Below, piece after piece: positions 4,436 to 62,357 of a stretch of DNA of 64,000 nt; positions within the stretch are counted from its first letter, which is position 1, and each line of letters opens with the position of its first letter. Where the stretch lies: the NCBI RefSeq assembly GCF_041260155.1, contig NC_091928.1, positions 44,804,637-44,868,636 on the forward strand, read 5' to 3'. The translations under genes were made by a program, and so were the position numbers. The DNA is from Ptychodera flava (lineage: Eukaryota > Hemichordata > Enteropneusta > Ptychoderidae). The notes beneath the pieces were generated by a model. The model did no database searches. It was not told the origin of the DNA and saw only the letters and a list, made by a program, of their open reading frames with translations.

Positions 4436-6899
<2,464 letters not shown>

Positions 6900-8288: not shown

Positions 8289-9217
8289 ACTCCCTCCCTC
8301 AGCTGCAATGAGTTTTGTTTATTAAATGTTTCAATATTTTAATTGGACATGACTCTTAAGACACAAACAGATTACTGCAGAAGACACGTAGCAGGGTCAA
8401 CATGAAGGTGATGTTTGTGTGACAAAAGTCATGTTTGTTCTGACTTTGTTCTGTAAAGATTTATGTTTACTTGTTCAATATTTATGTTTATTAAAGAAGT
8501 CTTGCTTTTTTCAGCTCCTGGAAATGTAGGACAGTATCATTGGTTGATCATTTTGTCGGACATAACTTGCTGTACGTAGCGTGCCTTTCTCAATGCTGGT
8601 ACCAAGTCGATTGATTAAAAGTTTTAGGATTTACAGTACCAATGCATACAATTTTAATATTTTTATCTACATACAATACAAAATAATGTTTATCATTTAC
8701 ACTATCTAAAGCATTCATTTTGAAATTTACACACTTTTTTTCTCAAAATGTGGGAAATGGGAATGTTGTTAGCCCGCTATTTACAGTAGGTGTTTAGATT
8801 CAGGTGGTAGTAATTATGGTCAGACGGATGTCTTAATTTAATTGCAGCTGATGTCAAGGTTCTTCCTTCAGTTGAATAAAATTCCATTAAATCAAGTGTG
8901 ATAACATAAATCCTTAAATTCACAGCATGTATTTATGCTTGCTAGCATTGTTTGTCTTAATTGTCATCTTGAAGTTGTATCAAAGTAGTTTAAAAAAAAT
9001 TAAATATAAGATTTCTATATTGTTGTTCTGAAAACATAACATTTGACATCTTTGATCGGTACATTCAGTTCAACTTTTTAAAGCAAGAGTGAGTAATTAA
9101 ACAATACACTAAACTTAATTGAGTATAGGAAAAGGTTACCCAGTCTTATGGAATACCTGTAGCAATACTTTAGTCGTACCTTCTGTTCTCTTGGTCAATA
9201 TTTAATCTCATTGTTAA
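8289..9217 (+). repeat. Long direct repeat, copy 1 (partner at 12936-13908)
   Basis: This block reappears 4.65 kb downstream in the same orientation with small indels. Shared landmarks include CTCTTAAGACACAAACA, TTACTGCAGAAGACA, ATGAAGGTGATGTTTGTGTG, GTTAGCCCGCTATTTACAG and CTTCTGTTCTCTTGGTCAA. No terminal inverted repeats or target duplication were recognised, so it could be a local segmental duplication or two copies of an unknown repeat. Confidence 0.75.
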
Positions 9218-12935: not shown

Positions 12936-13908
12936 CTCTCCTTCCCCCGGCAGCAATGCGTTTTCTTTATTAATATGTAAGTATTTTTAATTTTAGAGGG
13001 CTCTTAAGACACAAACATATTACTGCAGAAGACAGGTAGCTGGGTCGACATGAAGGTGATGTTTGTGTGACAAAAGTCATATTCATTTGTTCTGAATTTG
13101 TTCTGTAAAGATTTGTGTTTACTTGTTCAATGTTTATGTATTTTAGAGAAGTCTTGCTTTTTTCAGCTTCAGGAAATGTAGAACGGTGTCATCGGTTGTC
13201 ATTTTCTTGGACATGACTTCCTGTAGGTAATATGTCTTTGTCAATGCTCATACCAAATAGATTGATTAACAATCTTAGGATTTACAGTACCAATGCATAC
13301 AATTCTAATATTTTATCTACATATAATACAAAACAAAGTTTATCATTTACATTATCTATAAAAGTATTCATTTTGAAATTTATACACTTTTTTTCTCAAA
13401 ATGTAGGAAATGGCAATGTTGTTAGCCCGCTATTTACAGTAGGTAGATTCAGGTGGCTGTGATCGTGGCCAGACGGATGTCTTCATAAAATTGCCGCTGG
13501 TGTCAAAGTTCTTCATTCAGTCGAATAAAATTGCATTAAATCAAGTGACTCAAATTCTATCAAAGCTCAGCGATAACGCAATTCCTTAAATTCACAGCAT
13601 GTATTATTGCTTGCTAGCATAGTTTGTTTTGTCATCTTTAAGTTGTATCAAAGTTTAGTAAAATTTGTAAATGTAAGATTTTTATATTGTTGTTCTGAAA
13701 ATATGACATTTTGATCTTCAAATTAAGTTGTTGTTTTTTTTACTTTTTCAAAGCAAGGGTGAGTAATTAAACAACACAGTATACTTAATTGAGTATGAGA
13801 AAAGGCTACCCAGTAAACATTTGTATTTATAGCATACCTGTAACAATACTTTAGGCTTGCTTGTCATTTACCTTCTGTTCTCTTGGTCAAGTTTATCTCA
13901 TTGTTAAT
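12936..13908 (+). repeat. Long direct repeat, copy 2 (partner at 8289-9217)
   Basis: Same order of landmarks as copy 1, from CTTCCCCCGGCAGCAATG to CTTCTGTTCTCTTGGTCAAG, with scattered substitutions and indels that suggest appreciable age. Together the two copies bracket the TNF-receptor-like gene. No exon is recognisable inside either copy. Confidence 0.75.
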
Positions 13909-14755: not shown

Positions 14756-23005
<8,250 letters not shown>

Positions 23006-33599: not shown

Positions 33600-36500
33600 T
33601 TCTTATGTTGTTGGTGGACTTCTGTGAGGATTTTGATGAAAGCAACAGCATGTGAAGTGATGTAAGCATACAGGAAAAACAGTAGCTTTCATGAAAAATT
33701 CTTTTGGTAAGCAAGTTAATATCAACTGAAGTGATCATCCTCTATGAAAAGTTTGACATTTCACACCAGTTGGTAAAAATCAGTATACTTTTGTTTGATA
33801 AAAGTTGTGCAGCTAGTCAAACTACTTTCCTTCACAGTGTTCTATGAGTTAGTACAACATTGTTGGAAAGTTTTAAGTAACAGTATTGTCTCCTCCTGGA
33901 ATCAAAGATATTTTCCCAAATCATTCAAAAGGAGAATTTAGAGGAAACGTGCACTTTATAAAACTTGTCTATATATTTTTGTACATGTAGGTGACATACC
34001 GTATGTCACCAATGATCCACTGAGGAATCTCCAATGGTACAAATCAGATTGGATCATGGGATATCTCCTGTACTGTACACTATGTAATGTCCTTTAAACT
34101 ATGTACATAAACAAAAATAGAAGAAACTACTGCAAAACCTTAAAGAAAGCTAGCCCAACACGGATGTTGTTAGCTTTTGTTTCTATTATTTTAAGAGTGA
34201 TTAAAGTAAATATTGCTTTAATAAAGACAATTCTGTAATTATAGATTCCTGTCCCTCTATGATATTTCCTGTAATTTAGCCTGTGTAACTGACCGGTATC
34301 TTAGACTACAGGAATTCCTGCCAATGTCCATTCAGACAGTTTGGGCATTTTAAAACTTACTTAACATGGTTAAACTTCCCTTGAAATTAACAGGCAACTT
34401 CCAGCTGGTTTCAGACTGGCAGCTGCCATGAAAACACTTCTTCCCAACAGGGCTCATATATTGTATGTCATTTGTAGTTTTTGTGTGACAGTACCCTTTT
34501 AATGTGTTCTGAATCTGATGCCTTCAATCAAATGTACGAGTGTGTGTGTAAAATTTATCTAAAACGTTGTGTACATGCCCTGCTATGAAGTAGTACATTT
34601 TATGACAGCTACCAGTCTAAGCCCAGCTGGAAGTCACAGGTGATTTTTCAATGGAAAGCACCCAGCAATCTACACTGTGTATGTTGGAATTACTGTAGTG
34701 AATTTGCAAGTGTCTGACTGACGTTTCATTTAACACGATTCAGGGTATGTGTATAATGTTGAAAAATGTCATCCGATCAAAATAAGATTTTGTACAAAGA
34801 TTCTAATGTAAATGGCAAGACCTTTTAGTTTGCAATAGGTGTAGCTTGCATAATGCAATTAATTGCATAACTATTTGTATAGAAGTTGGATATTTGTAGG
34901 GCTTTATTGAATTTGATGAAACTTGCCACATATATTAATGATAAGATGATCTAAATTTGAAAAACATTTAGCAGCTCCTTGTCAGCTGATTAGTAACTTG
35001 CATATGAAAGGACCTTCATAATCAGGGAGTATAACTGGAAGGGTGTGAACAAAGGCAATGAAAACCTGTTTAATACGTTGATAATACAAAGATAGGATAT
35101 AAGTGAAAGATGGGAGTTTCATGTCAGCTACATGTAATTGCTAATGTGTATTTATATTTTTCAGTCCAGAGATATATGAACAGTGACTGACTGCATTAAG
35201 TCAGTGAAACTAAACATGTTTGCATACAATAACTTATGAGTGATCTAACAGGAACATAACGTAGTTCCATGTCATATAATTGGTATGGTAATTTGCATAT
35301 TTCATTAATTTAAATGAACATTTAGTTTTTCTTTGACTGCACCAAAATGTAATGTTTTCCTTTGTAATGTTGACATGAGCATATTTAAACACAATTTGTG
35401 GTCAGTCTTTGATTTGATATTTATTATAATGGCAACTTTGTGGAGATGATTTCAAAGAAAACACAAGTACTAGTATCAAATCACAGACAACTGCCCCAAG
35501 TATTCTGGTAAGAGCAAGCATTCTTAAATGTAAATCAAATCAAAAGAAGCCTACAAAGTTCAGTACAAGATCAAACCTTAGCTTCAGTCATAAAACCAAA
35601 ACACAGTAGGTCAAACAGCTCCATTTACCGTACTCGTCCGAGTATAAGCCCCCGGTTCGGCAACACTAAACAGCGGTAAAACTAGGGGAGGGGCTTATAC
35701 TCGAGCAACCCCATGTTATCTGGCATGGACGCTTAATTTATGCTAATTTTATGCACGATTTTTTTCAACACCACTCGATCTTTCTATCTCTTTCAAAATC
35801 GACTTACACATCCAAAGAAATTGATTGTACAATCTCTGAATACAGAAGTGACATTTTGGTGAAATTTCAGCGTCGAAAAAAAACCCAAACTTGAAACAAA
35901 GACGTCATGTATGCTGCTGATCAACAGTAATGACATGTGATTGTGAACAGGCATGCATTGCCCACACGGAAAGGCAACTCAATATTCCAATATCAAACTG
36001 TCTACATCTTGTGAAAACAACAACATAGCAGTGAAAATTGTAATAGTCAGCAGGAAAAGTCTTCACAAATGAAAGGATAATTGCTTCAAACAAAAGAAGC
36101 TGCATGTTTCAAGCATGAAAACATCGTGGCCGTGAATGAAAATAAACAATGGCGGACGTGAGTGAGACTATTCTATTTAGGCGACGGGGGTGAGTAGGGT
36201 CAAAGAATCAAGATAGTACTGGAAAAACGTGTCATTTTCCTTACGATATTGTCAAGGGAACTCCAGTTTCCCATTGTTTTAACATCTTTTAATGGTTTCT
36301 TTATTATCTAAAATTAATTTTACCAAGTTAAATGACCGAATATACTCTCCTAACCTTTCTGTATTTGAGTTACACTAGGGTAGGGGCTTATACACGGATG
36401 TAATGCATTTTCTAAAATCCTATAAAATCAGTAGGGGGGCTTATACACGAGCAGGGGCTTATACTCGGACGAGTACGGTAAGTAGACAGCTCTGCAGAGC

Positions 36501-37960
36501 CCTCTTTGTGGAGTAAAACATGATTTAGTATTGATGGTGTCATGCAAGTGATCTCATTATCTGCATTCGAATGTTACAGTTGGTGAGTATAATTAGGCCC
36601 TTTCTAAATTTATCATTCTGGTCAAAACTTAGTGATTAAAGAGACTGTTTGTATTCTGGTTTACAGCACTGTATCCAAAGTGTCTACACATATCACACCC
36701 GAGAGAGAACATTAAGTTGCCCTCTAAGCTTATGTGCCAACATTAACACTAGGACTCTGAGATACACTGCTCAATTTTTTTTTATTTCAAAAAAAGGAAA
36801 AGTATCTGAATATTAATTTCATATAAATTGCGAATCATTTCATACAATAGTTTTATTAGCTCATATTTGGCGTACATATGTATACCACAGAGAGCTTTAG
36901 TCATTATACCATGATCATCCTGCTGGTTGAAGAGCCTCATGGAGTAGTGGGAAGACTTCATCAAAGTGTCATGAACTTGTGTGAGAATGGATAGGGAAAA
37001 GCCAAACACCAGTCTGAATAACAAGAAAGAAAACTATTGAAGTCATAAACATGGAAGCATTTGAATGTACAATCCCAGCAAAATACATATCAGATATTTG
37101 TAATGAACAAGGTAAGACCAAAAAAAGAAAAAGTAACATAAAATACCTGTTTGAGGTTGTCCTGTTCTAATATCTCGTTCATTACAAAATGTCACTCTTT
37201 TGCTATCCTATGATGTTGTGTCGTTACATTTGGGTACTATTCAATAACTATATCCAAAGGATTACATCATACTCTCAATCTGACATCAACTCGACTTTAC
37301 TCTTTTGAATTCTATTGTTTGAAGGAGAGCTGTTGTTTTAGGGAGACTTCGGTTCCAAACAAATGAATTTCATATGAGTTATGTATGTGGGAATCATAAG
37401 CCGTCCCTGACAGGTTCTGATTCAAAGGGAAAGTCAAATATTTGTACAATTTCTTTTCATATCCATCCAGCAAAATTCTGGACAGCCAATTTGCAAATTT
37501 TCTGCTCGGTGTAAGTTTTTTAGAAAGTCATTGTTTGTCACGTGATAAACATATATGCAAGTAAGGCATGTTGTTTGCCCAAGTAATGAAAACTTTGCTC
37601 AGAAAATGTATGCTTTTCTCATTGTCAGCAAAATTAGATATTGTTTTTGTTGTAAATCTACACTTTGTTTAATGTACGTCACAAGTTTCATCACCTAATT
37701 GGGAAAGTTCATTAAATATGCAACTGGGCAGTGCCACTGTCATAAATCTGGTACATGACCTTGAAATTTGTCATATAATCCCTTGATAATATCTGCAAGC
37801 AGATTCATAGGATATGCTAGCTCTTGTCTTTCAGAGATATGTGGCTTCAACAAAATATATAATATACATGAAAATAAAGTGCTATTTGTGCATGCCACGC
37901 CCACCTAAAAACTAATCACTTTTTGCCCTTTCCAACTTGAAACAAAACCATGCACCAATA
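33600..37960 (+). repeat. Long interspersed repeat, copy A
   Basis: Non-coding sequence matching 56640-59790 over several kilobases in the same orientation. Shared segments include GTACAAATCAGATTGGATCA (34036/57292), ACAGTACCCTTTTAATGTG (34489/57703), CATGCCCTGCTATGAAGTAG (34574/57789), AATTTCATATAAATTGCGAA (36815/59586) and CTAATCACTTTTTGCCCTTT (37912/59730). Shorter copies lie at 42.3-43.9 kb. Copy A is interrupted by a TA-flanked transposon at 35628-36478 and, relative to copy B, has an extra ~0.95 kb near 36.93-37.88 kb, part of which matches 43.75-43.9 kb. No protein, LTR or inverted ends were recognised. Confidence 0.7.
35628..36478. mobile_element. TA-flanked DNA transposon, 851 bp, with verified empty site
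   Basis: Perfect 25-bp inverted ends (CCGTACTCGTCCGAGTATAA continuing GCCCC) with TA on both sides (35626-35627 and 36479-36480). The related copy B of the host repeat reads ATTTAAGTAAACAGC at 58934, the uninterrupted target, confirming a 2-bp TA duplication as for Tc1/mariner-like elements. Sub-terminal GGGGCTTATAC motifs recur near both ends. No transposase frame is visible, so it is non-autonomous. Confidence 0.88.
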
Positions 37961-43990: not shown

Positions 43991-46536
43991 AACCTAGATC
44001 TTTTCTCTTCTTCATTAGCAGTTTTAAAATACACAATACTGTCCCAGTAAAAGGAGCAGTAGATGGCAGGACTGAAATAAACAAAATATGGTGCACTAAA
44101 ATATATCAAATCGCTCCACTGGTTTCTAAAAGAAATGGAGGAAAGAAAAAAGGTTTTGAATTCTTTAACCTTCAGAAAAAGCCTAAGGCTACCATTAATT
44201 TAATTTGACTCCAGAAGGCCAGTGACGTTACGGTATGCCATCTCCAGGCGATGCATAGTATAGGTTGTTCTCCCTGCTATAGGCCTTATAGGCATTTTAT
44301 TATATGAAATATCTATGTTTAGCCTTGTGCCCATCTCTGGAAACCATAGAAAGCAGACTATAGAAGGTTATGTGGAAACGAAGTTGTCAAATTAGCCAAA
44401 TTAATGCGCTGCTAATGCAGTACAGCTTTGCAGCACATTACTTGTGTGCCAGCTCTTAATTCCTGCCAGAAAAAAAATAACACCTGCATGACCATGGCAA
44501 TGAAAAGGCCTTGAAAGTGACACCTTTTCTCTTTGTTCGTGTTGACACAAGTATGAAGAGATACCCACAGATGTCTTTTCTCCCGAGCCACCTTTCCATT
44601 AAATAGGATGAGCTAAGAAATCAGGTGAAATTGTCTTTCAGTTCTCCTTAGTATTGTATACACTGCTTTACATTTTTAGACTGAAAAATATTCACACTGA
44701 TTAAAATGCGAACAGCAGGTCAATCGTCAATATTTTAATGTACTTAGCTACTGTGAAATTCTTTGATAGTTGGCACATATATTGCTCACGTCAATTTTTC
44801 AATATTTTCCCCATTTTTGATGAGAACATCTTCAGTTTTTTCAGCCATGGAGATTCATAGTTAGATTCCTTAGGGATATCCCTAGTCAAGTTTTTTGACT
44901 TGCTGATGAAATGGGCAGGGTAATATTTTTAAGCTGGTGTACTCCTTTACTGTTAAAATATCTTTGGAAACACTTGTCTGATGAAATTTTTGGGCCAATA
45001 TTCTCACTTCTTTGAAAGTACCCTGTCATATTTTTTAACTTTTGATAAAGTGCCGGGGAAACCCTATTTCTTGATTCACTCAGTATTACTGACAAAATGT
45101 TACTAGTATAAGTATCTCAAAGTACTCTTTACAATATTTCGAGCTATTTTGCATAAATAGTAACACGATGAAAACAGTGTCAAAACGCAATGAACTACCG
45201 CTAATCTTTAAATCTGTTGACCCAACAACGGTCTGTTGAATATCAGGCAATACTTTTTATAGCACATTAAGAGTAGGGAAAGACTTCCTTTCGGCCCACC
45301 CCGATTTTTTTTCTTAGAAGGATATACAACACTTTTAAGTATGCTAACCCTAATACTAACCTTGCCCTTTTTCTGATTTCTCCAAAAAGTTGTATATGAT
45401 GTGCTTCTCCCAAGGAAAGTCCGTGGTTAAAGTGATTTCCAGGTATGAGAGGGCCTAATGGAACTCTTGCTTAGAGCAACAGTAATTTCAGCACACGCAG
45501 TCATGCCTTCGGCATTTCGCGACTCTCGCCTTTAGGCGCTACGCTTGAGACACCCTTTTCCCGTATATTTGGTGGAGACACTGGTACTATAATAAAAAAG
45601 AAAACGCACAGGGGACTGTTGGCAGTCTAGCCCTGATCCCGTTGGACAATGACAGTTGAATGCAACCGATGTTCACCATACCCGTTCCTCGACATGGCTG
45701 ACGACAATGTTTTTAACAGTCCTTGCTCGACAGTGTTGAAAAAACAGGCCGGCCTCGGTAGTCTAGTTAATGTAGGTCGTGTGTAGGCCCAATCAAGCTG
45801 AAAAGAGGCTCACGAAATTCAGTAGCGCATCAAACCAGACTAGGAGTCAACCAGAGCATTTGTCGTAAAACAAAAAGTCTGTGTAAAAAAGCTCCTCATG
45901 CTCCTTGTAAAGTAAACACCTGCTAAAAGACACTCAACAATAATTAAGTGTTGATAGTGCCATGGTTGTGATCTCTTTACTCTACTAGCTTGTTCCAGCA
46001 AGTGAGAAAGAGATAGAGGGAGTACGCGCGTTTGGGAGTCCTGTCATCTGGTTGTAAATATGTCATGTGGTTGTTGGCTATGACACACCCATATTTGGTT
46101 ATGTTTCGATGTCAAAGATCAGAGTTGAAAGTCCAAGCATGGGTAATTCCTTGCATTCTTGATACCTTGTGCCAGCTCTGGTTGTCAAAGCACGTTTTCA
46201 TTTGTGCCATTTCGAAGCAAGTGAGTACAAGTATAGTAGTCTGTTCGATTCTTGATCGTAGGCTTGTAACACAAGGATACGATTTCTCATATATCTCTGG
46301 TGTTAGCATGCAGGCGGTTTTAAAATTCAGAGGTCTTTAAAATTCAGAGGTCAGACGAAATCAGGTCTACATGACAGTCCGCCTCTGACTGTACATCAGT
46401 CATCATGATCGACCTCGACAGATTCAGCACTTTAGTGTTTGATTGTTATGGTCCAAAGCCGTACAAAGCTACTGTGCTTGCTTTTGTATTCATGGCACTG
46501 CTTCAGTAACAACGGTCGAAAATGCTCAAAGCATTA
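43991..46536. other. Gene-poor region with a diverged repeat remnant
   Basis: About 45745-45990 is a further diverged copy of the long repeat (TTCAGTAGCGCATCAAACC, GTGTTGATAGTGCCATGG). The open frame ending before a GTGAGT donor at 46221 is a possible exon (ending VFICAISKQ) but has no recognised relative and its phase does not match the next exon found at 51664. Confidence 0.4.
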
Positions 46537-49500
46537 TAAACCTGGTTGCATGGACACTCCGGCGCATCTCTCTTAGTGTGCTATGGCTGTGACTTCTAAG
46601 TTTTCCCAGTGGTTTTTCATCTTTCTATGCTATCGCCAACTGATTTAAGTTGTCTAATCAAATATTTTTGCAGAATCTGCATTTTTAGTATGCTGAGTCA
46701 CAATGTGTCACCTGGTTGCACGGACACTCTGGTGCATCTCTCTTACTGTGCTAAGGCTGTGACTGATAAGTTTTCTCATTGGTTTTCATCTTTCTATGCT
46801 ATCGCCAACTGATTTAAGTTGTCTAATCTAAATTATTTGCAGGAACTGCATTTTTAGTATCCTGAGTCACCATGTGTCACCTGGTTGCACAGACAGACTG
46901 GTGTATCTCTCTTACTGTGCTAAGGCTGTGACTGCTAAGTTTTCTCATTGGTTTTCATCTTTCTGTGCTATCGCCAACTGATTTAAGTTGTCTTATCTAA
47001 ATTCTTTGCAGGAACTGCATTTGTAGTATGCTGAGTCACCATGTGTCACCTGGTTGCACGGACACTCTGGTGCATCTCTCTTACTGTGCTAAGGCTGTGA
47101 CTGATAAGTTTTCTCATTGGTTTTCATCTTTCTATGCTATCGCCAACTGATTTAAGTTGTCTAATCTAAATTTTTTGCAGGAACTGCATTTTTAGTATGC
47201 TGAGTCACCATGTGTCACCTGGTTGCACAGACACTCTGGTGCATCTCTCTTACTGTGCTAAGGCTGTGACTTCTAAGTTTTCTCATTGGTTTTCATCTTT
47301 TTATGCTATCACTAATTGATTTAAGTTGTCTAATCTAAATTTTTTGCAGGAACTGCATTTTTAGTATGCTGAGTCACCATGTGTCACCTGGTTGCACGGA
47401 CACTCTGGTGCATCTCTCTTACTGTGCTAAGGCTGTGACTGATAAGTTTTCTCATTGGTTTTCATCTTTCTATGCTATCGCCAACTGATTTAAGTTGTCT
47501 AATCTAAATTATTTGCAGGAACTGCATTTTTAGTATGCTGAGTCACCATGTGTCACCTGGTTGCATGGACACTCTGGTGCATCTCTCTTACTGTGCTAAG
47601 GCTGTGACTGCTAAGTTTTCTCATTGGTTTTCATCTTTTTATGCTATCACTAATTGATTTAAGTTGTCTAATCTAATTTTTTGCAGGAACTGCATTTTGA
47701 GTATGCTGAGTCACAATGTGTCACCTGGTTGCACGGACACTCTGGCGCATCTCTCTTAGTGTGCTAAGGCTGTGACTGCTAAGTTTTCTCATTCGTTGTC
47801 ATCTTTCTATGCTAACGCCAACTGATTTAAGTTGTCTAATCTAAATTTTTTGCAGGAACTGCATTTTTAGTATGCTGAGTCACCGTGTGTCACCTGGTTG
47901 CACGGACACTAGCGCATCTCTCTTACTGTGCTAAGGCTGTGACTGCTAAGTTTTCTCATTGCTTTTCATCTTTCTGTGCTATCGCCAACTGATTTAAGTT
48001 GTCTTATCTAAATTCTTTGCAGGAACTGCATTTGTAGTATGCTGAGTCACCATGTGTCACCTGGTTGCACGGACACTTTGGTGCATCTCTCTTACTGTGC
48101 TAAGGCTGTGACTGATAAGTTTTCTCATTGGTTTCCATCTTTCTATGCTATCTCCAACTGATTTAAGTTGTCGAATCAAATTTTTTTGCAGAATCTGCAT
48201 TTGGAGTATGCCGAGTCACCATGTGTCACCTGGTTGCACGGACACTCTGGTGCATCTCTCTTACTGTGCTAAGGCTGTGACTTCTAAGTTTTCTCATTGG
48301 TTTCCATCTTTCTGTGCTATCGCCAACTGATTTAAGTTGTCTTATCTAAATTCTTTGCAGGAACTGCATTTTTAGTATGCTGAGTCACCATGTGTCACCT
48401 GGTTGCACGGACACTCTGGTGCATCTCTCTTACTGTGCTAAGGCTGTGACTGATAAGTTTTCTCATTGGTTTTCATCTTTCTATGCTATCGCCAACTGAT
48501 TTAAGTTGTCTAATCTAAATTATTTGCAGGAACTGCATTTTTAGTATCCTGAGTCACCATGTGTCACCTGGTTGCACAGACAGACTGGTGTATCTCTCTT
48601 ACTGTGCTAAGGCTGTGACTGCTAAGTTTTCTCATTGGTTTCATCTTTCTGTGCTATCGCCAACTGATTTAAGTTGTCTTATCTAAATTCTTTGCAGGAA
48701 CTGCATTTGTAGTATGCTGAGTCACCATGTGTCACCTGGTTGCACGGACACTCTGGTGCATCTCTCTTACTGTGCTAAGGCTGTGACTGATAAGTTTTCT
48801 CATTGGTTTTCATCTTTCTATGCTATCGCCAACTGATTTAAGTTGTCTAATCTAAATTTTTTGCAGGAACTGCATTTTTAGTATGCTGAGTCACCATGTG
48901 TCACCTGGTTGCACGGACACTCTGGTGCATCTCTCTTAGTGTGCTAAGGCTGTGACTTCTAAGTTTTCTCATTGGTTTTCTCTTTTATGCTATCACTAAT
49001 TGATTTAAGTTGTCTAATCTAAATTTTTGCAGGAACTGCATTTTTAGTATGCTGAGTCACCATGTGTCACCTGGTTGCACGGACACTCTGGTGCATCTCT
49101 CTTACTGTGCTAAGGCTGTGACTGCTAAGTTTTCTCATTGGTTTTCATCTTTCTATGCTATCGCCAACTGATTTAAGTTGTCTAATCTAAATTATTTGCA
49201 GGAACTGCATTTTTAGTATGCTGAGTCACCATGTGTCACCTGGTTGCACGGACACTCTGGTGCATCTCTCTTACTGTGCTAAGGCTGTGACTGCTAAGTT
49301 TTCTCATTGGTTTTCATCTTTTTATGCTATCACTAATTGATTTAAGTTGTCTGATCTAAATTTTTTGCAGGAACTGCATTTTGAGTATGCTGAGTCACAA
49401 TGTGTCACCTGGTTGCACGGACACTCTAGCGCATCTCTCTTAGTGTGCTAAGGCTGTGACTGCTAAGTTTTCTCATTCGTTTTCATCTTTCTATGCTAAC

Positions 49501-50950
49501 GCCAACTGATTTAAGTTGTCTAATCTAAATTTTTGCAGGAACTGCATTTTTAGTATGCTGAGTCACCGTGTGTCACCTGGTTGCACGGACACTAGCGCAT
49601 CTCTCTTACTGTGCTAAGGCTGTGACTGCTAAGTTTTCATTGCTTTTCATCTTTCTGTGCTATCGCCAACTGATTTAAGTTGTCTTATCTAAATTTCTTT
49701 GCAGGAACTGCATTTGTAGTATGCTGAGTCACCATGTGTCACCTGGTTGCACGGACACTTTGGTGCATCTCTCTTACTGTGCTAAGGCTGTGACTGTCTA
49801 AGTTTTCTCATTGGTTTCCATCTTTCTATGCTATCTCCAACTGATTTAAGTTGTCTAATCAAATTTTTTGCAGAATCTGCATTTGGAGTATGCCGAGTCA
49901 CCATGTGTCACCTGGTTGCACGGACACTCTGGTGCATCTCTCTTACTGTGCTAAGGCTGTGACTTCTAAGTTTTCTCATTGGTTTTCATCTTTCTGTGCT
50001 ATCGCCAACTGATTTAAGTTGTCTTATCTAAATTCTTTGCAGGAACTGCATTTTTAGTATGCTGAGTCACCATGTGTCACCTGGTTGCACGGACACTCTG
50101 GTGCATCTCTCTTAGTGTACTAAGGCTGTGACTTCTAAGTTTTCTCATTGGTTTTTCATCTTTCTGTGCTATCGCCAACTGATTTAAGTTGTCTAATCAA
50201 ATTTTTTTGCAGAATCTGCATTTTTAGTATGCTGAGTCACCATGTGTCACCTGGTTGCACGGACACTCTGGTGCATCTCTCTTACTGTGCTAAGGCTGTG
50301 ACTTCTAAGTTTTCTCATTGGTTTCCATCTTTCTGTGCTATCGCCAACTGATTTAAGTTGTCTTATCTAAATTCTTTGCAGGAACTGCATTTTTAGTATG
50401 CTGAGTCACCATGTGTCACCTGGTTGCACGGACACTCTGGTGCATCTCTCTTGGTGTACTAAGGCTGTGACTTCTAAGTTTTCTCATTGGTTTTTCATCT
50501 TTCTGTGCTATCGCCAACTGATTTAAGTTGTCTAATCAAATTTTTTTGCAGAATCTGCATTTTTAGTATGCTGAGTCACCATGTGTCACCTGGTTGCACG
50601 GACACTCTGGTGTATCTCTCTTACTGTGCTAAGGCTGTGACTGCTAAGTTTTCTCATTGGTTTTGCTCTTTTTATACTATTACAAAGTGATTCAAAATCA
50701 AAATTTTATGCAGTCGTCTGCTTTAGGAGTATGCTGAGTCACAATGTGTCACCTGGTTGCACGGAGTCATGTGGTACATCTCTCTTTCCTTATAAGGCTT
50801 TGTCATCTAAGTTTCTCCTTTGTTTTGCTCTTTTTATGCTATTAAAAAGTGATTCAAGTTTTCAAATAAAAAATTTATGCAGGAATCTGCTGTTAGATCA
50901 TGCTGAGTCAGAATGTGTCACCTGGTTGCACAGAGACTTTGCAGTGGTAT
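46537..50950 (+). repeat. 169-bp satellite array, ~26 monomers, with higher-order repeat
   Basis: Monomers repeat at exactly 169 bp in the well-preserved part: GCAGGAACTGC recurs with AGG at 46841, 47010, 47179, 47348 and 47517. Each contains TGCTGAGTCACCATGTGTCA, then CCTGGTTGCACGGACACTCT, CTTACTGTGCTAAGGCTGTG and GCCAACTGATTTAAGTTGTC. Variant monomers recur about 1683 bp apart: CACTAGCGC near 47907/49590, ACACTTTGG near 48073/49755, GAGTATGCCGAGTC near 48203/49885 and GTATCCTGAGTC near 46857/48544. This shows a 10-monomer higher-order unit present twice. A two-monomer unit (339 bp) is repeated near 50.15/50.49 kb. The final units (50.65-50.95 kb) are diverged. Open frames inside are period artefacts with a stop in each monomer. 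Confidence 0.95.
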
Positions 50951-51663
50951 AAAACTTGCTAATTAAGGGGCGCTGCACCCAACACAGGGTATTTTGCACC
51001 AAAATCACTTTTTTGTAGACATTCATTTAATTTAATGAAATTGTTAACCCATGATTAAAATATTATTATTTTGGTTCATCTTCAAGGCTGTCAAGCAGTC
51101 GTAGGTTGCTTGATAAAGAAGTGTTAATTTTTGCAAATGTTTGCAAATCACCCAATTTCCTGGCTTCACTATTCTTCAAGTTTCAAGATTTCCAAACAAT
51201 TTAACTCCATACTGACTTGGTCAAACTTTCTTAAATTTTCACATTATTTTTTTTAAATGTTGTTAAACAAAACTTTTTTTGATTGGCAATAAAGTTCTTA
51301 CATTTTGAATAAGAGGCATTTTAATTTGTATGAGGATCATGTACTGTAAAATATGTTCAGATGTAACCTGCCAAAAGAAGGAAATGACAACCATGTTAAA
51401 AGTGATATTTTATTCAAATCATATGTGTCACTGCCCATTTAGGGCAACTGTTGTCAGCTCCACTTATATATAACCATTGCAAGACTGATATCATTTTTTA
51501 TATACAAAGTAAAACAAACTGTGGCATATATGTCTTTTGAAGGTTTATGGCATGTCTGTTGAAAACAGAGAGTATTAAAAAAAGACTAATTTTTAATATG
51601 AAACGTCTGTGAACAGTGTCTATTCATTCTGATGTAATAATGGATTTTTGTTTGTTTTGACAG
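50951..51663. other. Spacer between satellite and unknown gene
   Basis: AT-rich, no recognisable element. It is presumably intron of the gene whose exons follow. Confidence 0.4.
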
Positions 51664-52472
51664 TATCTTTGAATGCTATGACACTGCCTTAACAACAGAT
51701 GGTAAGAAGTTTGTTTTGGAAGAGGAATGTGAAAGAAACGTCAATGTAAGTAGGGTATTATGTTCATATGTTGCTTCTCACATTGGTGTACCATTTTGTA
51801 GTTACAACTTGAGCTGTATCCTGTGAATGGTTTTGGGATAATTGTGTAAGTTATTATATTACAACTCTCAAAAATTTAGAGGGCCTGTAATGCTTACTTT
51901 TGATATTTTTTCATTATTTATATTTGTCCACTGTAAGTTGTTATTTTACTACAAAAAGATTGCTAAAAAATCAATATTTAGCTTGTCAGCATAGCACTTG
52001 TATGTGTGATTGCACTGGTATTAGAAAGCAGCCATAAGGACTTGTTTTAAACATCAGCATCCTGGTGCACAGTATACTGGGTAATCAGACTCAACAAGGA
52101 GCCACATGCATAAGCAGTGGAGGTCATCAACACCAGTGCTAAATAAGAGTATTTTAACAAATATTTTTATTGCACACAGAACTCATATAATTATTGAACT
52201 ATTACATTCTATTGAATTACATTTCCAATGTTACTGTGCACAAGTTTATGGGCTAGCCCTATCATGATATCATACATTTTATGACATTATCTACCACAGG
52301 TTTACATGGGTGAAAGAAATATACAAAAATGTATTAACAGTATATCTATATTTCTATTTTTCTCACTCAGGTTTGTTGTAGACTACATCACAATTGTGTT
52401 GTTGAGGAGGCTGAAGTTTACCTTATGTCAAGGAAAAGAATGGTTATGCTTGAAGAAGCAAATAAACTCTAG
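51664..52472 (+). CDS. Unrecognised gene, last two exons
   Basis: Exon 51664-51745 begins after TTTTGACAG, carries one base of a split codon and reads IFECYDTALTTDGKKFVLEE then ECERNVN to a GTAAGT donor. Exon 52371-52472 follows a strong acceptor (TTTTTCTCACTCAG) in the same phase and reads VCCRLHHNCVVEEAEVYLMS then RKRMVMLEEANKL, ending TAG. AATAAA overlaps the last codons (GCA AAT AAA CTC TAG) and may be the poly(A) signal. Phase agreement, consensus splice sites and protein-like composition (charged, five cysteines) support a real gene. I do not recognise the family. Upstream exons were not found; if they lie left of 46.5 kb, the satellite array is in its intron. An alternative internal donor (GATG|GTAAGA, 51701) exists. 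Confidence 0.6.
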
Positions 52473-54890: not shown

Positions 54891-55816
54891 TCCTGTACTT
54901 TCAAATTCTGCCCTGTCAGATATCTTAGTGGAAACCTTGTCATGATGCCCATCCAAAATAAACAATACTGTATGGTAAACAATACTATATGGTTGGATAG
55001 TGGTTACAGCATGAGCTTTTGTATCTACATTTTATTGTGACTCTGAATTTCCTTTTGCCGGTCACATCTTTTTCAACTGTCATGAGGTAACCATGATATT
55101 CCAGCAGGATATGAAAGGTCTGTACTATTGCTGCAGTTTTGTAAATGTTACAAATATATGTCTTGGTATTTAACTGGTCTAAGTGGTTGGGGGGAGGGGA
55201 GGGATCAGTCAAAATTTCTTGTTAGAGGTTGGCATGGGGTTTACTCGAAATTTCAGAATACTACGAAATTCCCCCGACTTCCCCCCAAGGTCGTAAATAA
55301 TTACGACTCCCTAAGTAAGATTTTTACCACAGGAAAACGTTAATTTTATTCACTCTTCATCTTTTGTTAACCTTAGAAATTTGATTATGTAAAATGTGTT
55401 GTTACTTGTTGTAATCTTGAATTGTTGAAATGAATAAAATCTTGGAAAGTAAAACATGATCCTGTGTCACTGTTGTTCCTGTCTTGTTTCACCATCAGAG
55501 AAAAAAAAATTCTTATAAATTCACACCCAATTGCTCTACCAAAACAGAAAAATTATTGACATTTTTCAGGCAAAACACGTGCCGTCTCACCAGTTATACT
55601 TGTAAGTTCAATGCAACTCTGCATAACATGTTCGGACGAGAGAGGTGACCATAGAGGGCGAACGTCCTACTGGTACTCGTGTGACAGGCTTGCAACCACA
55701 TGACATACTCCGGGTGCGCGCGTACTGGTCTACAGGAGAAAGATGCGCAATGAGCCCCTATCTGTATAACCTCAGGTCAAACCCGAGTGATCATGGGGAC
55801 AGGGTTTGTATTCTAA
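54891..55816. other. No recognisable gene
   Basis: Includes GGGGGGAGGGGAGGG at 55190 and the inverted CCCCC-rich line near 55270. No supported coding sequence. Confidence 0.35.
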
Positions 55817-56409
55817 GGGGAGAACCATATGATTGGGGGGTGGCTGGAGGAAATGGGTGTGGGAGCAACATTTTTCGACCACTGTGGCAGCAAGTTTTTT
55901 TCTATAGTAGATCTGTCCTGTGTCAATTTTATTTCCACATGTGGAAGGAATGCAAATTTTATTAGTGATTATCAATTTTTTACTATGCGGTTCACTATCA
56001 TTAGTAAGTCAATCTAAAACATCTCTATATAAGTTTTGATCATCACAGTGTTTATTGCAACACAATGAAATATGTTTGCTAGGACGTAGTATACAACAAA
56101 AAGCCTTTTGTTGAACGAATTTTTACAAACCTTTTGCTGTGTGTTTATATCACGAGTACTGGCAAAAAGACGTTGGACTTCTTCATGTGTTAATGTTAGC
56201 ATCGCAAAAGGCAGCGCATCTCCTGAGAATGAGAGAATGAGAGAGTCAGCTTTCCCAAATTTTGTAACAATTTTTTTTCTTTGGTTTGATATAATCAATT
56301 TTTTTCTCAAGGTATTACTGGAACAATTTTTTTTCTTCTTCTTAACTTGCCGACTATTTTTTTCCTACCAAAAATCCTCCGGTCCCCAAGAAATGAAATG
56401 GTTCTTCCC
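55817..56409. mobile_element. Possible Harbinger-like MITE with imperfect ends
   Basis: The left end GGGGAGAACCATATGATT and the inverse of the right end GGGAAGAACCATTTCATT agree well, followed by GGGG in both. The flanks are TAA and TAT, not identical. T-run interior as in the element at 60501. Tentative. Confidence 0.4.
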
Positions 56410-56805
56410 TATCACCGATCACTATTTCGTCCAGCGTTCCTTTATCTGGTTGTCTGCCAAATTCATTAACTAACGCATGAAGAATGAGCATTTATTTAAC
56501 ACACCACTGCTCTAACAGACTGCCTCAGTTGCTTCCGTCCGTGAAATAAAAAAACCAACCAAAATTCGTGTCGTAATTTCAATTTTGTGTTGTAGTGATG
56601 AACTCTTTCACGGAATAATCTATGCTTTTCCGTAGTGCTTGCTTGCTCTGTAATTGTCATATAAACTGTGGTTGTACTAAAAACACAGGAGCTAACATGA
56701 AAAATTCTATTGGTGAGCAAGGTAATATAAACTGAAGTGGTCATTCTCTAGGAAAAGTTGATAATTCATAGCAATTGGTAAAAATCGCTATCCTTTAGTT
56801 TGATA

Positions 56806-57035
56806 GTACAGTAGATTTTCGATCGGATTCGAACTCACTACGTAAGGCCCCCACCATCTAGCGAAGATATCACAGTCACAACTACTCAGCCAAGTGCTCA
56901 CCCTTGAAAAGAGTGGTTCAATTAAACCGAACTAAGTTGTTATAATTTTTCTGACTGCGACCTCCTCTTGCCGTAGCGTTGATAAAGCACTCGCACTCAC
57001 ATACAAGCTATCACACATCACACACAAACTTTATC
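56806..57035 (-). mobile_element. tRNA-derived SINE-like insertion
   Basis: Read on the minus strand it has a box-A-like TGGCTGAGTAGT (56893-56882) and a box-B-like GAGTTCGAATCC (56838-56827), about 68 bases apart in all. This is too long for an ordinary tRNA but suits a tRNA-derived promoter. Copy A of the host repeat lacks this segment, so it is an insertion. Ends and target duplication are not resolved. Confidence 0.5.
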
Positions 57036-59235
57036 AGAGGTGCAGCAAGACTCTATACCACTTTCCTTTAAAGTACTCCATGCGAGAGAGTACACAGTTG
57101 TTGGAAAATTTTACCTAAAGTATTGTCTTCTTGAATCAAATATATTTTTCCAAATCATTCCAAGGGAGAATTTAGAGAAGTTATGTGCTTTAAAGTACAT
57201 TTGTACAATTTATAAAACTTGTCTATACATCTGTGTGCATGTGGGAGACAAACTAGATTTTACTTAGGATATACAGAGGAATATTTAATGGTACAAATCA
57301 GATTGGATCATGGGATATCCCCTGTAGCTGTACTGTACACTGTGTAATGACCTTTAAATCTATGTGCATAAACATCATGCAAATAGACAAAAATACAAGA
57401 GCCAGCCAAACGCTTATGTTGTAAGCTTTTTTCTTATTACTTTAAGAGTGATTAAAACAAACATTGCTTGTATAAAGGCAGTGCTGTAATTATTGATTCT
57501 AGTCCGTCTATAACATATCCTGCAAGCCAGTGAAATTTCCTTAGATAACAGCAATTCCTGCAAGTCCATTCAGACTGCTCAGGCATAGTTTAAACTTCTC
57601 TTGAAATTTATTGGCGACTACAAGCTGGACTGAGACTGGCAGCTGCCATGGAAACTCCCCTTCCCAGAAGGGCTTCATATGTTGCATGTCAGTTTATGTG
57701 TGACAGTACCCTTTTAATGTGTACTGAATCTGATGCCTACAATCAAATGTATGAGTGTGAGTGTAAAATTTATCTACAACGTTGTATACATGCCCTGCTA
57801 TGAAGTAGCACGTTTTATGACAGCTACCAGTTTTAGCCCAGCTGGAAGTCACTGATAATTTTGCAAGTTGAGTAATACCCCGGCCATCTAAACTGTGTCT
57901 GCAGCAATTTCTGCATTGAATTTGCAAGTGTCTGATAGATGTAACATTTAGCATGATTGATGAAAATTCAGTATATGTGTATCCATGGAGACAAATAAAC
58001 CTTAATCCTTGTCTGCAATACTCCTATATCTTAAAGTCCAGGTCATTCAGAAAGACCGTTCAATGACATTTATATGTTTATCTGTTTGTACGGTGCGATA
58101 TCTCAAGAATGGCACAGCTGATCAAAATCAGATTTGGTACACGGATTCTATTTGGGAAGGGCAAGACCTTATTGCCTTGCTTTAGTTGTAGCTTCCATGA
58201 TGCAATTAAGATGTATAATTGTTTGTATAAAAGTTGGATATTTGCAGGACTTTACTAACTCTCGGCGAAACTTGAGATTAAATGACATAAATGTGAAAGA
58301 CGTGGCAGTTTCTTGTCATCTGATTGGTAACTTGCATAAAGTGCCTTTCATAATTTGGGAATATGACTGGAATGATATGACATAGGGAAATAAAAACCTG
58401 TTTAATTTATTTATAATACATAGATATGATATTGGTGAAACATGGCAGTTTCATGTCAGCTAAATGGAATTGCTAATGTGTATTTATATTTTCAACGAAG
58501 AGCTATATGAGCAATGACTGACTACATCAAATCAGTGAAACTAAACATGTTTGCATATATACGTAAAAACTTGTGAGTGTATTTAGAGGAACATAATGCA
58601 CTTCCATGTCATATAATTGGTAATTTGCATATTTCATGAATTGAAATGTAGTTTTTGACTGGCTGCACCAAAATGTAGTGAGATTTATGTGTGATGTTGA
58701 CATCGGCATGTTTCAAGACATGTTGTGATAAGTCACTCATTGAATATTTATTGTAATTGCAGCTTTGTGGCAATAATTGCAAAGAAAATAAATTAGAGGC
58801 CACTGGATCAGATAGCCTGGTAAATGTAGGCATTCTTACATGTAAATCAAATCAAAAGAATCCCAAAAAGTTCAGTACAATATCAAACCGTAGCTTTAGT
58901 CATAAAACCAAAACAGAATCGTTCAAACTGCTAAATTTAAGTAAACAGCTATACAGAGTGAAGTAAATCATGATTTAGTATTGCGGGTGTCATGCAGGTG
59001 ATCTCGTTATCTGCATTGGAATGTTACGGGTGGTGAGTATAATGAGGCCCTCTCTAAATTTATCACTCTGGTCAAAACTTAGTGATCAAAGAAACTTTGT
59101 TCGTATTCTAGCTTACAGCATTGTATCTAGACTTGGTTCCAGTCTGTGATGATTTGTGTTCTCTTTCATGTCAAACGTATGAGTGGGGTGAACGCTAAAC
59201 AGGGGAGTTTCTCCCGGAATCAATCCGGCAGAACG

Positions 59236-59282
<47 letters not shown>

Positions 59283-59283
59283 T
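59236..59283 (+). repeat. (AAT)n microsatellite
   Basis: About 16 uninterrupted AAT units. Confidence 0.97.
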
Positions 59284-59790
59284 ACTGCGCAGACTCAAAG
59301 GTAACGCGTTCAATTAATCGCAAGGAAACCTGGCCTTGGCTGGCAAATTCCAAATAGGTCTGTATGAAATAGGAGAAACACAAGAGAAACTATTACAAAA
59401 GATTTTGTTTAAGAAATTCTTCGACTTGAACCAAGTGTACTCTGTATCCAATGAGTCTACATATATCACGTCTGACAGAGTACATTAAGTTGCCCTCTAT
59501 GTGCCGACATTAACAACACTAGGACTCTGAGATACTCTGCTCAGTCTTGTTATTTCAAAAAAGGAAAAGTTGTTTCTGAATCTTAATTTCATATAAATTG
59601 CGAATCATTTCATATAACAGTTTTATTAGCTCATATTCGGCGTATGTATATATAAACCACAGGGAGCTTTAGTCATTACACCATGAGCATGTAAATTAGT
59701 ATTAATGATGCATGCAACACCCACCAAAAACTAATCACTTTTTGCCCTTTCCAACTTGAAACAAAACCATGCAACAAATTTTGTTCTAAT

Positions 59791-60500: not shown

Positions 60501-62357
60501 GGGACGGACTATCAGATCTTGGGAGGGGGTGGTCAAAAACAGAAAAAAAAAATTTCAGAGTAGAAAGTTAGGAAAAAAAAATCTTCAAACTAGTTTGCAA
60601 AATAAAAAAAAAATAAATAAGAAGACAAAGGCGTAAAAAAAAATCTGCAAAAGTCTTTAAAATTTTGAATTTTTTTTAGATTTAACCGACAGTAAGCAAC
60701 TTTCTGTATTTTTAATACATCCTCCCGGCACATTTTTAATTTTAATTTATACATTTAGAGTGACTGTATCCCTTATACTGGAAGTTGTGATTATCTTATC
60801 TTTTCAGGACTTTTGTATTCTGATCACTTGAAAATTATGAAATTATAGAGCCTGTTTTCTACTTGTTTCCTGCGTACAAACCAAGCAGGTACACTAGGTA
60901 AAACATTGAAACTATGGTATGGTTGTCAAGACAGAAAGTTGTATTTGCCTTTTAAGATCAAGGTAAACAGATGCAGGCCACATCATTTCATTTTTTTCAC
61001 AGCATTTTATTACAATGATGAATGCAAGAATGGGTGAACAAGTAGAAACACGTCAATAATGATAAAACAACATATCAAGTCATTATGTATTATTTTGCTT
61101 TAAAAAGGCATTTTCAATTCTTTTTTCTCAAAAAACAGCCTCAAAAACAACAGCAACACATGTTTTAACATTCAACAATACACTACGTAGAATGCCATCT
61201 ATCCAACAAATCCCAACACAAAAACACTTAAAGGGTTGAACTTTGAAAGTTTCTCGATAGCAAATACTGAATAAATCTGCATGGTTAATCGTTTTTGTGT
61301 AGCAAATTTCAAAGAAATTGGACAAGCCCTTTCAGAGAATACAGATTTTTTGACCATGAATGGCATAAATTGCCCAAAAAGACAAATATTGAAATTTCAA
61401 CACATCTATACACATCCAATCAATTTGGACATGCTGCTACAGAGAAATAGATGTTTTGATCAAAAAGGGCAACAATTGCTCTAAAAACACAAATATGCAA
61501 ATTTCACTATATTATTTAGCTTATTTTAGCTTCTCAGCTTGTCAAAATCAATTGTAAATCATGAGATATGCATGATGTTTGGTGGGGTGAATGTAGGCAT
61601 TTCACCACGCAGTAGAAAGGGAAGCCAGGAAACCAAAATAGTCAATTTTCAAAACTATACGAAGCTACTGAGGAGCAAGAAGACCATGTTTCAGAGGAAG
61701 ATGTGTAATCCAAAAAAAATGCTCCCAGAGTGCCACCAAATAACACCATTTTTATCTATTTTTCAAACGCTCCAACAGCAGGAGGGGGGACACCCCCCTC
61801 CTGACCTCCCCCCACAAAAATACTCCCCAAGTGCCACCAAATAACACCATTTTAATCTCTATTTTTCAAAAGCTCCAACGGCAGGAGGGGGACACCGCCC
61901 TCCTGACCTCCCCCCGCAAAAATACTCCCCAAGTGCCACCAAATAACACCATTTTAATCTCTATTTTTCAAAAGCTCCAACAGCAGGAGGGGACACCCCT
62001 CTCCTGACCTCCCCCCGCAAAAATACTCCCCAAGTGCCACCAAATAACGCCATTTTAATCTCTATTTTTCAAAAGCTCCAACGGCAGCAGGGGGACACCC
62101 CTCTCCTGACCTCTTCCCAGTGACCGCTTGCGTGACCGCTTGTGGTGCTTGGCACCACATGTTTGCCCTCTTTATCTTCAGACAGTGACGAACGAAAAAA
62201 AAATTATAAATCTGAAAATTTACTCTGAAAAAAAAAATTTCCACAGCTAATCTCAATTGGAAAAAAAAAAATTCAGAAATTTACAATAGTAAAAAAAATA
62301 TTTTCACAATTTCATTGTGACCACCCCCCCCCCTCCCAAGGTCTAATGGTCCATCCC
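60501..62357. mobile_element. PIF/Harbinger-like element, 1857 bp, TTA duplication
   Basis: The left end GGGACGGACTATCAGATCTT and the right end AAGGTCTAATGGTCCATCCC are inverted copies, each continuing into a G-run (GGGAGGGGG) and TGGTCA. TTA flanks both sides (60498-60500 and 62358-62360). Near each end are runs of A(8-10) alternating with short AT-rich words. No transposase frame is seen. The two Harbinger-like elements in the window share GGGA-starting, G-run-containing ends and internal tandem repeats, so they may be related families. Confidence 0.82.
61712..62115 (+). repeat. Four tandem ~101-bp repeats in the Harbinger-like element
   Basis: Units start near 61720, 61821, 61923 and 62024. 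Each reads CTCCCCAAGTGCCACCAAAT, then ATTTTTCAAAAGCTCCAACG, then GCAGGAGGGGGACACC and CCTCCTGACCTCCCCCC. The last unit is diverged at its end. Confidence 0.92.

Follow-up and report, generated by a model that had tools for sequence, protein, structure and literature searches.

A short satellite-like array with a probable incipient two-copy higher-order repeat in gene-bearing DNA of Ptychodera flava

The window, that is the whole stretch of 64 kb that we analysed, contains exon matches to RPL27A, KRR1 and NDUFA9 as well as an open frame that encodes a complete DIM1 domain, which we take to be the protein known as TXNL4A. Due to these matches to housekeeping genes, we consider the window to be gene-bearing. 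The nearest identified gene ends at 32.95 kb, which is 13.6 kb from a tandem array that spans 4.4 kb (46540 to 50941). TRF reports this array in one row (46540-50938, period 169, 26.1 copies, 91% matches). With a profile search, it is divided into 26 full monomers and a 24-bp partial monomer (50918-50941), all head-to-tail on the + strand, and splitting at an anchor results in a start-to-start spacing of 163-170 bp. All three approaches thus confirm the array of 169-bp monomers that had been described in the first-pass annotation. Numbering the monomers from m01 to m26, we distinguish the following features:

46540..46707, + strand: left-edge monomer m01, 84-93% identical to m02-m24, nearest to m22/m24
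46708..48394, + strand: 10-mer unit A, m02-m11, 1687 bp
48395..50076, + strand: 10-mer unit B, m12-m21, 1682 bp, separated from unit A by 12 substitutions and 9 indel events
49908..50246, + strand: dimer copy 1, m21-m22, where m21 is also the final monomer of unit B
50247..50585, + strand: dimer copy 2, m23-m24, with 99% identity between m24 and m22 and between m23 and m21; m23 equals m11
50586..50748, + strand: m25, probably mosaic, as judged by comparison with the core consensus and m26
50749..50917, + strand: m26, diverged edge monomer, matching the core consensus at 126/169 positions
50918..50941, + strand: 24-bp partial monomer at the array end, its first 14 bp being part of a 32-bp low-variability box

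The mean identity among m02-m24 is 93.5%. Compared to m01-m24, the last two full monomers are more distant (78-85% for m25 and 69-75% for m26). The observed/expected ratio of CpG is lower in the array (0.29) than in the remaining window (0.53), a contrast that is weak because the array is one copied sequence. No long open reading frame was found in any of the six frames of the array, where the longest stop-to-stop stretch has 103 aa and each frame contains 71-115 stops; a coding repeat was rejected on this basis. A structured RNA was rejected as well, based on the lack of an Rfam match within the window and on the folding of one monomer, m04, which revealed no structure beyond chance (z 0.27 on the + strand and 0.10 on the - strand). 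With many head-to-tail copies of a non-coding unit, the array is satellite-like, a term that here rests on a single instance in one 64-kb window.

To describe the higher-order structure, we compared monomers by their distance in the array and observed that identity reaches its maximum at a lag of ten. Among m02-m24, lag-10 identity is 97.5% compared to a permutation mean of 93.5% (z 7.7), and none of 2000 permutations was as high; the same holds for m01-m26 (94.4 versus 90.6; 0/2000). There is a weaker peak at lag two (94.5% in m02-m24, 34/2000 permutations; 0/2000 for m01-m26). The dimeric rhythm that this peak might indicate is visible over the whole array but is not robust within a single 10-mer (p=0.05 in m02-m11 and p=0.20 in m12-m21). 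The 10-unit periodicity is also found in a maximum-likelihood tree of the 26 monomers, where seven of the ten pairs formed by a monomer and its counterpart ten positions on are either identical or sisters. Of these, 02/12 and 04/14 are identical, 03/13, 08/18, 09/19 and 10/20 are well supported, and 05/15 are sisters with weak support (86/74). Monomers 11/21 cluster with m23, and the two pairs 06/16 and 07/17 fall within an unresolved fork.

An alignment of the two units over 1690 columns shows 12 substitutions (0.7%) and 9 indel events. Eight of the 11 gap columns fall in unit B, and a sequencing or assembly error in B is therefore possible. The duplicated blocks comprise whole numbers of monomers. 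As the two units resemble each other more than their monomers do, the array qualifies as a higher-order repeat (HOR), with only two copies of the unit. The recurrence at about 1683 bp that had been noted at first pass holds as far as the two 10-monomer units are concerned, both by lag-10 identity and by the tree, whereas a uniform length does not, as the units measure 1687 and 1682 bp. Similarly, the duplicated two-monomer unit is present (m21-m22 and m23-m24), but it does not form the very right edge, since the diverged monomers m25 and m26 lie beyond it.

The right edge is informative in its own right. In its first half, m25 agrees with the core consensus in 76 of 77 columns; over most of its second half, it agrees with the consensus in 54 of 80 columns and with m26 in 61 of 80, suggesting that m25 is probably a mosaic monomer. 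Under unequal exchange, one would expect the edges to diverge and an edge monomer to be mosaic. Layered unequal crossing-over, as initially proposed for this array, is thus well supported by the lag-10 identity, the tree and the diverged right-edge monomers.

Both ends of the array lie at or near the box ATGCTGAGTCACCATGTGTCACCTGGTTGCAC of 32 bp. This box is the best-kept stretch of m26 (30/32), and in the core, no more than 4 of 169 windows vary less. The array start (46540) falls inside the box, and the final partial monomer extends about 10 bp beyond it, with similarity stopping at 50941. Taken singly, neither conservation measure is significant (491 of 5000 permutations equal the best m26 window, and 1446 of 5000 equal the core minimum), and the box at the array ends thus remains a lead. 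By analogy with a proposal for HORs of Meloidogyne, the array might have grown and broken at a protein-bound or recombination-prone box, outside any centromere; we consider this very doubtful. The array would gain importance if this box were to mark array ends genome-wide.

HOR satellite DNAs with conserved boxes at monomer junctions are described for the root-knot nematodes Meloidogyne chitwoodi and M. fallax (PMC3694981). The array resembles them in its HOR organisation and in having a box, which here is of low variability and sits at or close to the array ends, and there is conserved at the junctions. In contrast to Meloidogyne, it is a two-copy HOR of closely related monomers, and its box lacks a CENP-B core and is statistically insecure in its conservation. 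The monomer itself was not found in the literature when searched by one 17-base core string. Exact pattern matches were absent from viral_contigs (one pattern) and genome_contigs (two patterns), and a blastn search of unit A against phages returned no match; these results say little because the collections are not of eukaryotes.

In oysters, short dispersed satellite-like arrays are well described (PMC7492417, PMC11136912). In the Pacific oyster Crassostrea gigas, monomers of 160-180 bp make up 51.41% of all (PMC7492417), and the 13 largest array clusters, with 49% of the detected arrays, are borne by HINE elements. The array shares with the Cg_HINE arrays, including the Cg170/HindIII family, a monomer of about 160-180 bp, a short array and a position in sequence that is assembled and putatively euchromatic (PMC7492417). 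This agreement raises the question of whether a mobile element, be it a non-autonomous Helentron/HINE or some other type, carries the array as its central tandem repeat. However, the likeness concerns length and array size, and no HINE flanks were found. Furthermore, the array has 26 units, while 15.64% of oyster arrays hold at least five (PMC7492417). We compared the flanks (245 bp on the left and 195 bp on the right, exact matches only) with the 11-12 bp subterminal inverted repeats of such elements and found none above chance: the longest flank-to-flank inverted match has 7 bp and was equalled in 187 of 200 shuffles, a poor test as it involves one copy. A palindrome near the 3' end is also expected, and perfect stems of 6-8 bp do occur on either side of the array. 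Among these, a 6-bp hairpin (AATGCT-CAA-AGCATT, 46521-46535) lies 4 bp from the left array edge, and hairpins of this type are present in 34 of 1608 other 25-bp windows; it was picked out after the fact. Such elements would also carry a microsatellite-like segment at a distance of 10-500 bp from the first repeat; the only TRF result near the array at a score of 50 is a two-copy 17-mer (46319-46352), and an eroded microsatellite could escape this search. The motif TATAAA at both edges was rejected as a target-site duplication, since random pairs of windows have a 6-mer in common in 898 of 5000 draws. Finally, the window contains no convincing second copy of the left flank (best E 0.099), the right flank (best E 0.002 over 20 bp) or the monomer (profile search, best outside match E 0.03). 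We thus consider a mobile-element origin unlikely.

The higher-order structure could also be deceptive if unit B were an assembly artefact, with an allelic copy or unpolished sequence mistaken for a duplicate, in which case the plain array would still be real. Allelic copies reach a substitution difference of 0.7% in many marine invertebrates, which is the level seen between the units, and the excess of gap columns in unit B is what unpolished long-read sequence might show. Units A and B join in register, and repeat-driven misassembly would yield the same. The dimer duplication and the edge divergence, however, are independent of unit B being an artefact, and we regard this explanation as quite improbable. 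Another possibility is that the array acts in cis, either as an enhancer cluster or as a set of splice decoys. There are 24 perfect copies of TGAGTCA, presumably an AP-1-type heptamer, in the 26 units, and most units contain TTTTTTGCAG, which we take to be a 3'-splice-site-like motif. Acceptor-like sites number 24 on the + strand (5.4 per kb, while the two strands of the remaining window have 2.0 and 2.5 per kb) and one on the minus strand of the array, and the donor-like word GTRAG is missing from the + strand of the array, compared to 1.7 per kb in the rest. Nonetheless, 26 copies of one sequence count as a single observation, the motifs were chosen after looking, the acceptor model is crude, and the Pfam scan of 100 open reading frames around the array found no host gene; a role in cis is therefore highly unlikely. 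According to the least probable reading, the array would be an outlier of a satellite at or around the centromere that has a 10-mer HOR. The monomer has a near-nucleosomal length and the duplication is HOR-like, features that had suggested a centromeric likeness at first pass. Primate alpha satellite has a monomer of about 171 bp, and its HORs are similar to the array in monomer length and in a multimonomer unit that is repeated whole. The monomers of the array, about 93% alike, resemble each other more than those within alpha-satellite HOR units do. In contrast to alpha satellite, the array lies in a gene-bearing place and has no CENP-B box core. This core, TTCGNNNNANNCGGG, has 0 matches on both strands of the array, a weak test because many centromeric satellites lack the box. 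With only two HOR copies, only 4.4 kb of array and housekeeping-gene exons within the same 64 kb, the centromeric likeness finds no support, and we consider a centromeric origin extremely unlikely.

We also inspected the surroundings of the array for coding sequences. Beyond 37 kb, 224 stop-free open reading frames of at least 44 aa are listed, and 100 of these, between 43.3 and 60.6 kb, were scanned with Pfam; the scan left out some frames at 57.7-60.1 kb and exons below 44 aa. It resulted in one weak match (IRF-2BP1_2_M, E 0.0082). The placement of the array in an intron, as suggested in the first-pass annotation, is thus not borne out by these 100 frames, while shorter exons would escape the scan. 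An exon-like stretch at about 51662-51747, flanked by AG and GTAAGT, has no match in Pfam or PDB, and four exon pieces of the window served to train a crude coding score, which ranked no notable exon beside the array. For the frame at 55627-55962, PDB gave a weak match (interleukin-9 receptor, E 0.016) that was not trusted, and Pfam gave none.

The reading that we favour, and that we consider likely, is a short non-coding satellite-like array of an ordinary, dispersed kind in gene-bearing DNA that carries a two-copy incipient HOR from unequal exchange. Its unit count, the 10-mer and dimer duplications, the edge divergence and one mosaic-looking edge monomer are seen directly; for the rest, we infer a mechanism, an order of events and a euchromatic state of the array. 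The array may have started with the tandem duplication of a 169-bp segment and would have expanded to about 14 units, either through unequal exchange in register or through slippage during replication. A dimer would have been duplicated, and the recent duplication of one ten-unit block (m02-m11) as a whole would have created the incipient two-copy HOR. The right edge would have escaped homogenisation and then diverged. Without the ten-unit and dimer duplications, 14 full monomers remain, which presumably correspond to the earlier array. Under such a history, the array would require no function of its own. The formation of HORs from plain tandem arrays is a known process, to which this array adds another case. 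It cleanly illustrates how a plain tandem array begins to turn into an HOR, with units that are 0.7% apart by substitution and in gene-bearing DNA.

Further repeats are present in the window. The array lies between two regions (33675-37958 and 56681-59777) with pieces of one interspersed repeat, colinear and directly oriented. Their similarity is about 75% across the two longest pieces, and shorter ones reach 83-94%; partial copies occur at 42.3-42.9 and 43.2-43.6 kb. A direct repeat of about 0.95 kb (8290-9217 and 12938-13907) is 80% identical, and a second tandem array with a period of 101 and 3.9 copies is found at 61715-62113. At 5230-5934, there is a nearly perfect inverted repeat with arms of 338 nt that are 99% complementary and a spacer of 29 nt. 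Lastly, nested inverted repeats with 16-bp tandem units of the type CACTTCGCACCAAAAC extend over 15135-17152, possibly a fold-back-like mobile element, and a short motif similar to these units occurs to the right of the array, near 50991-51011.
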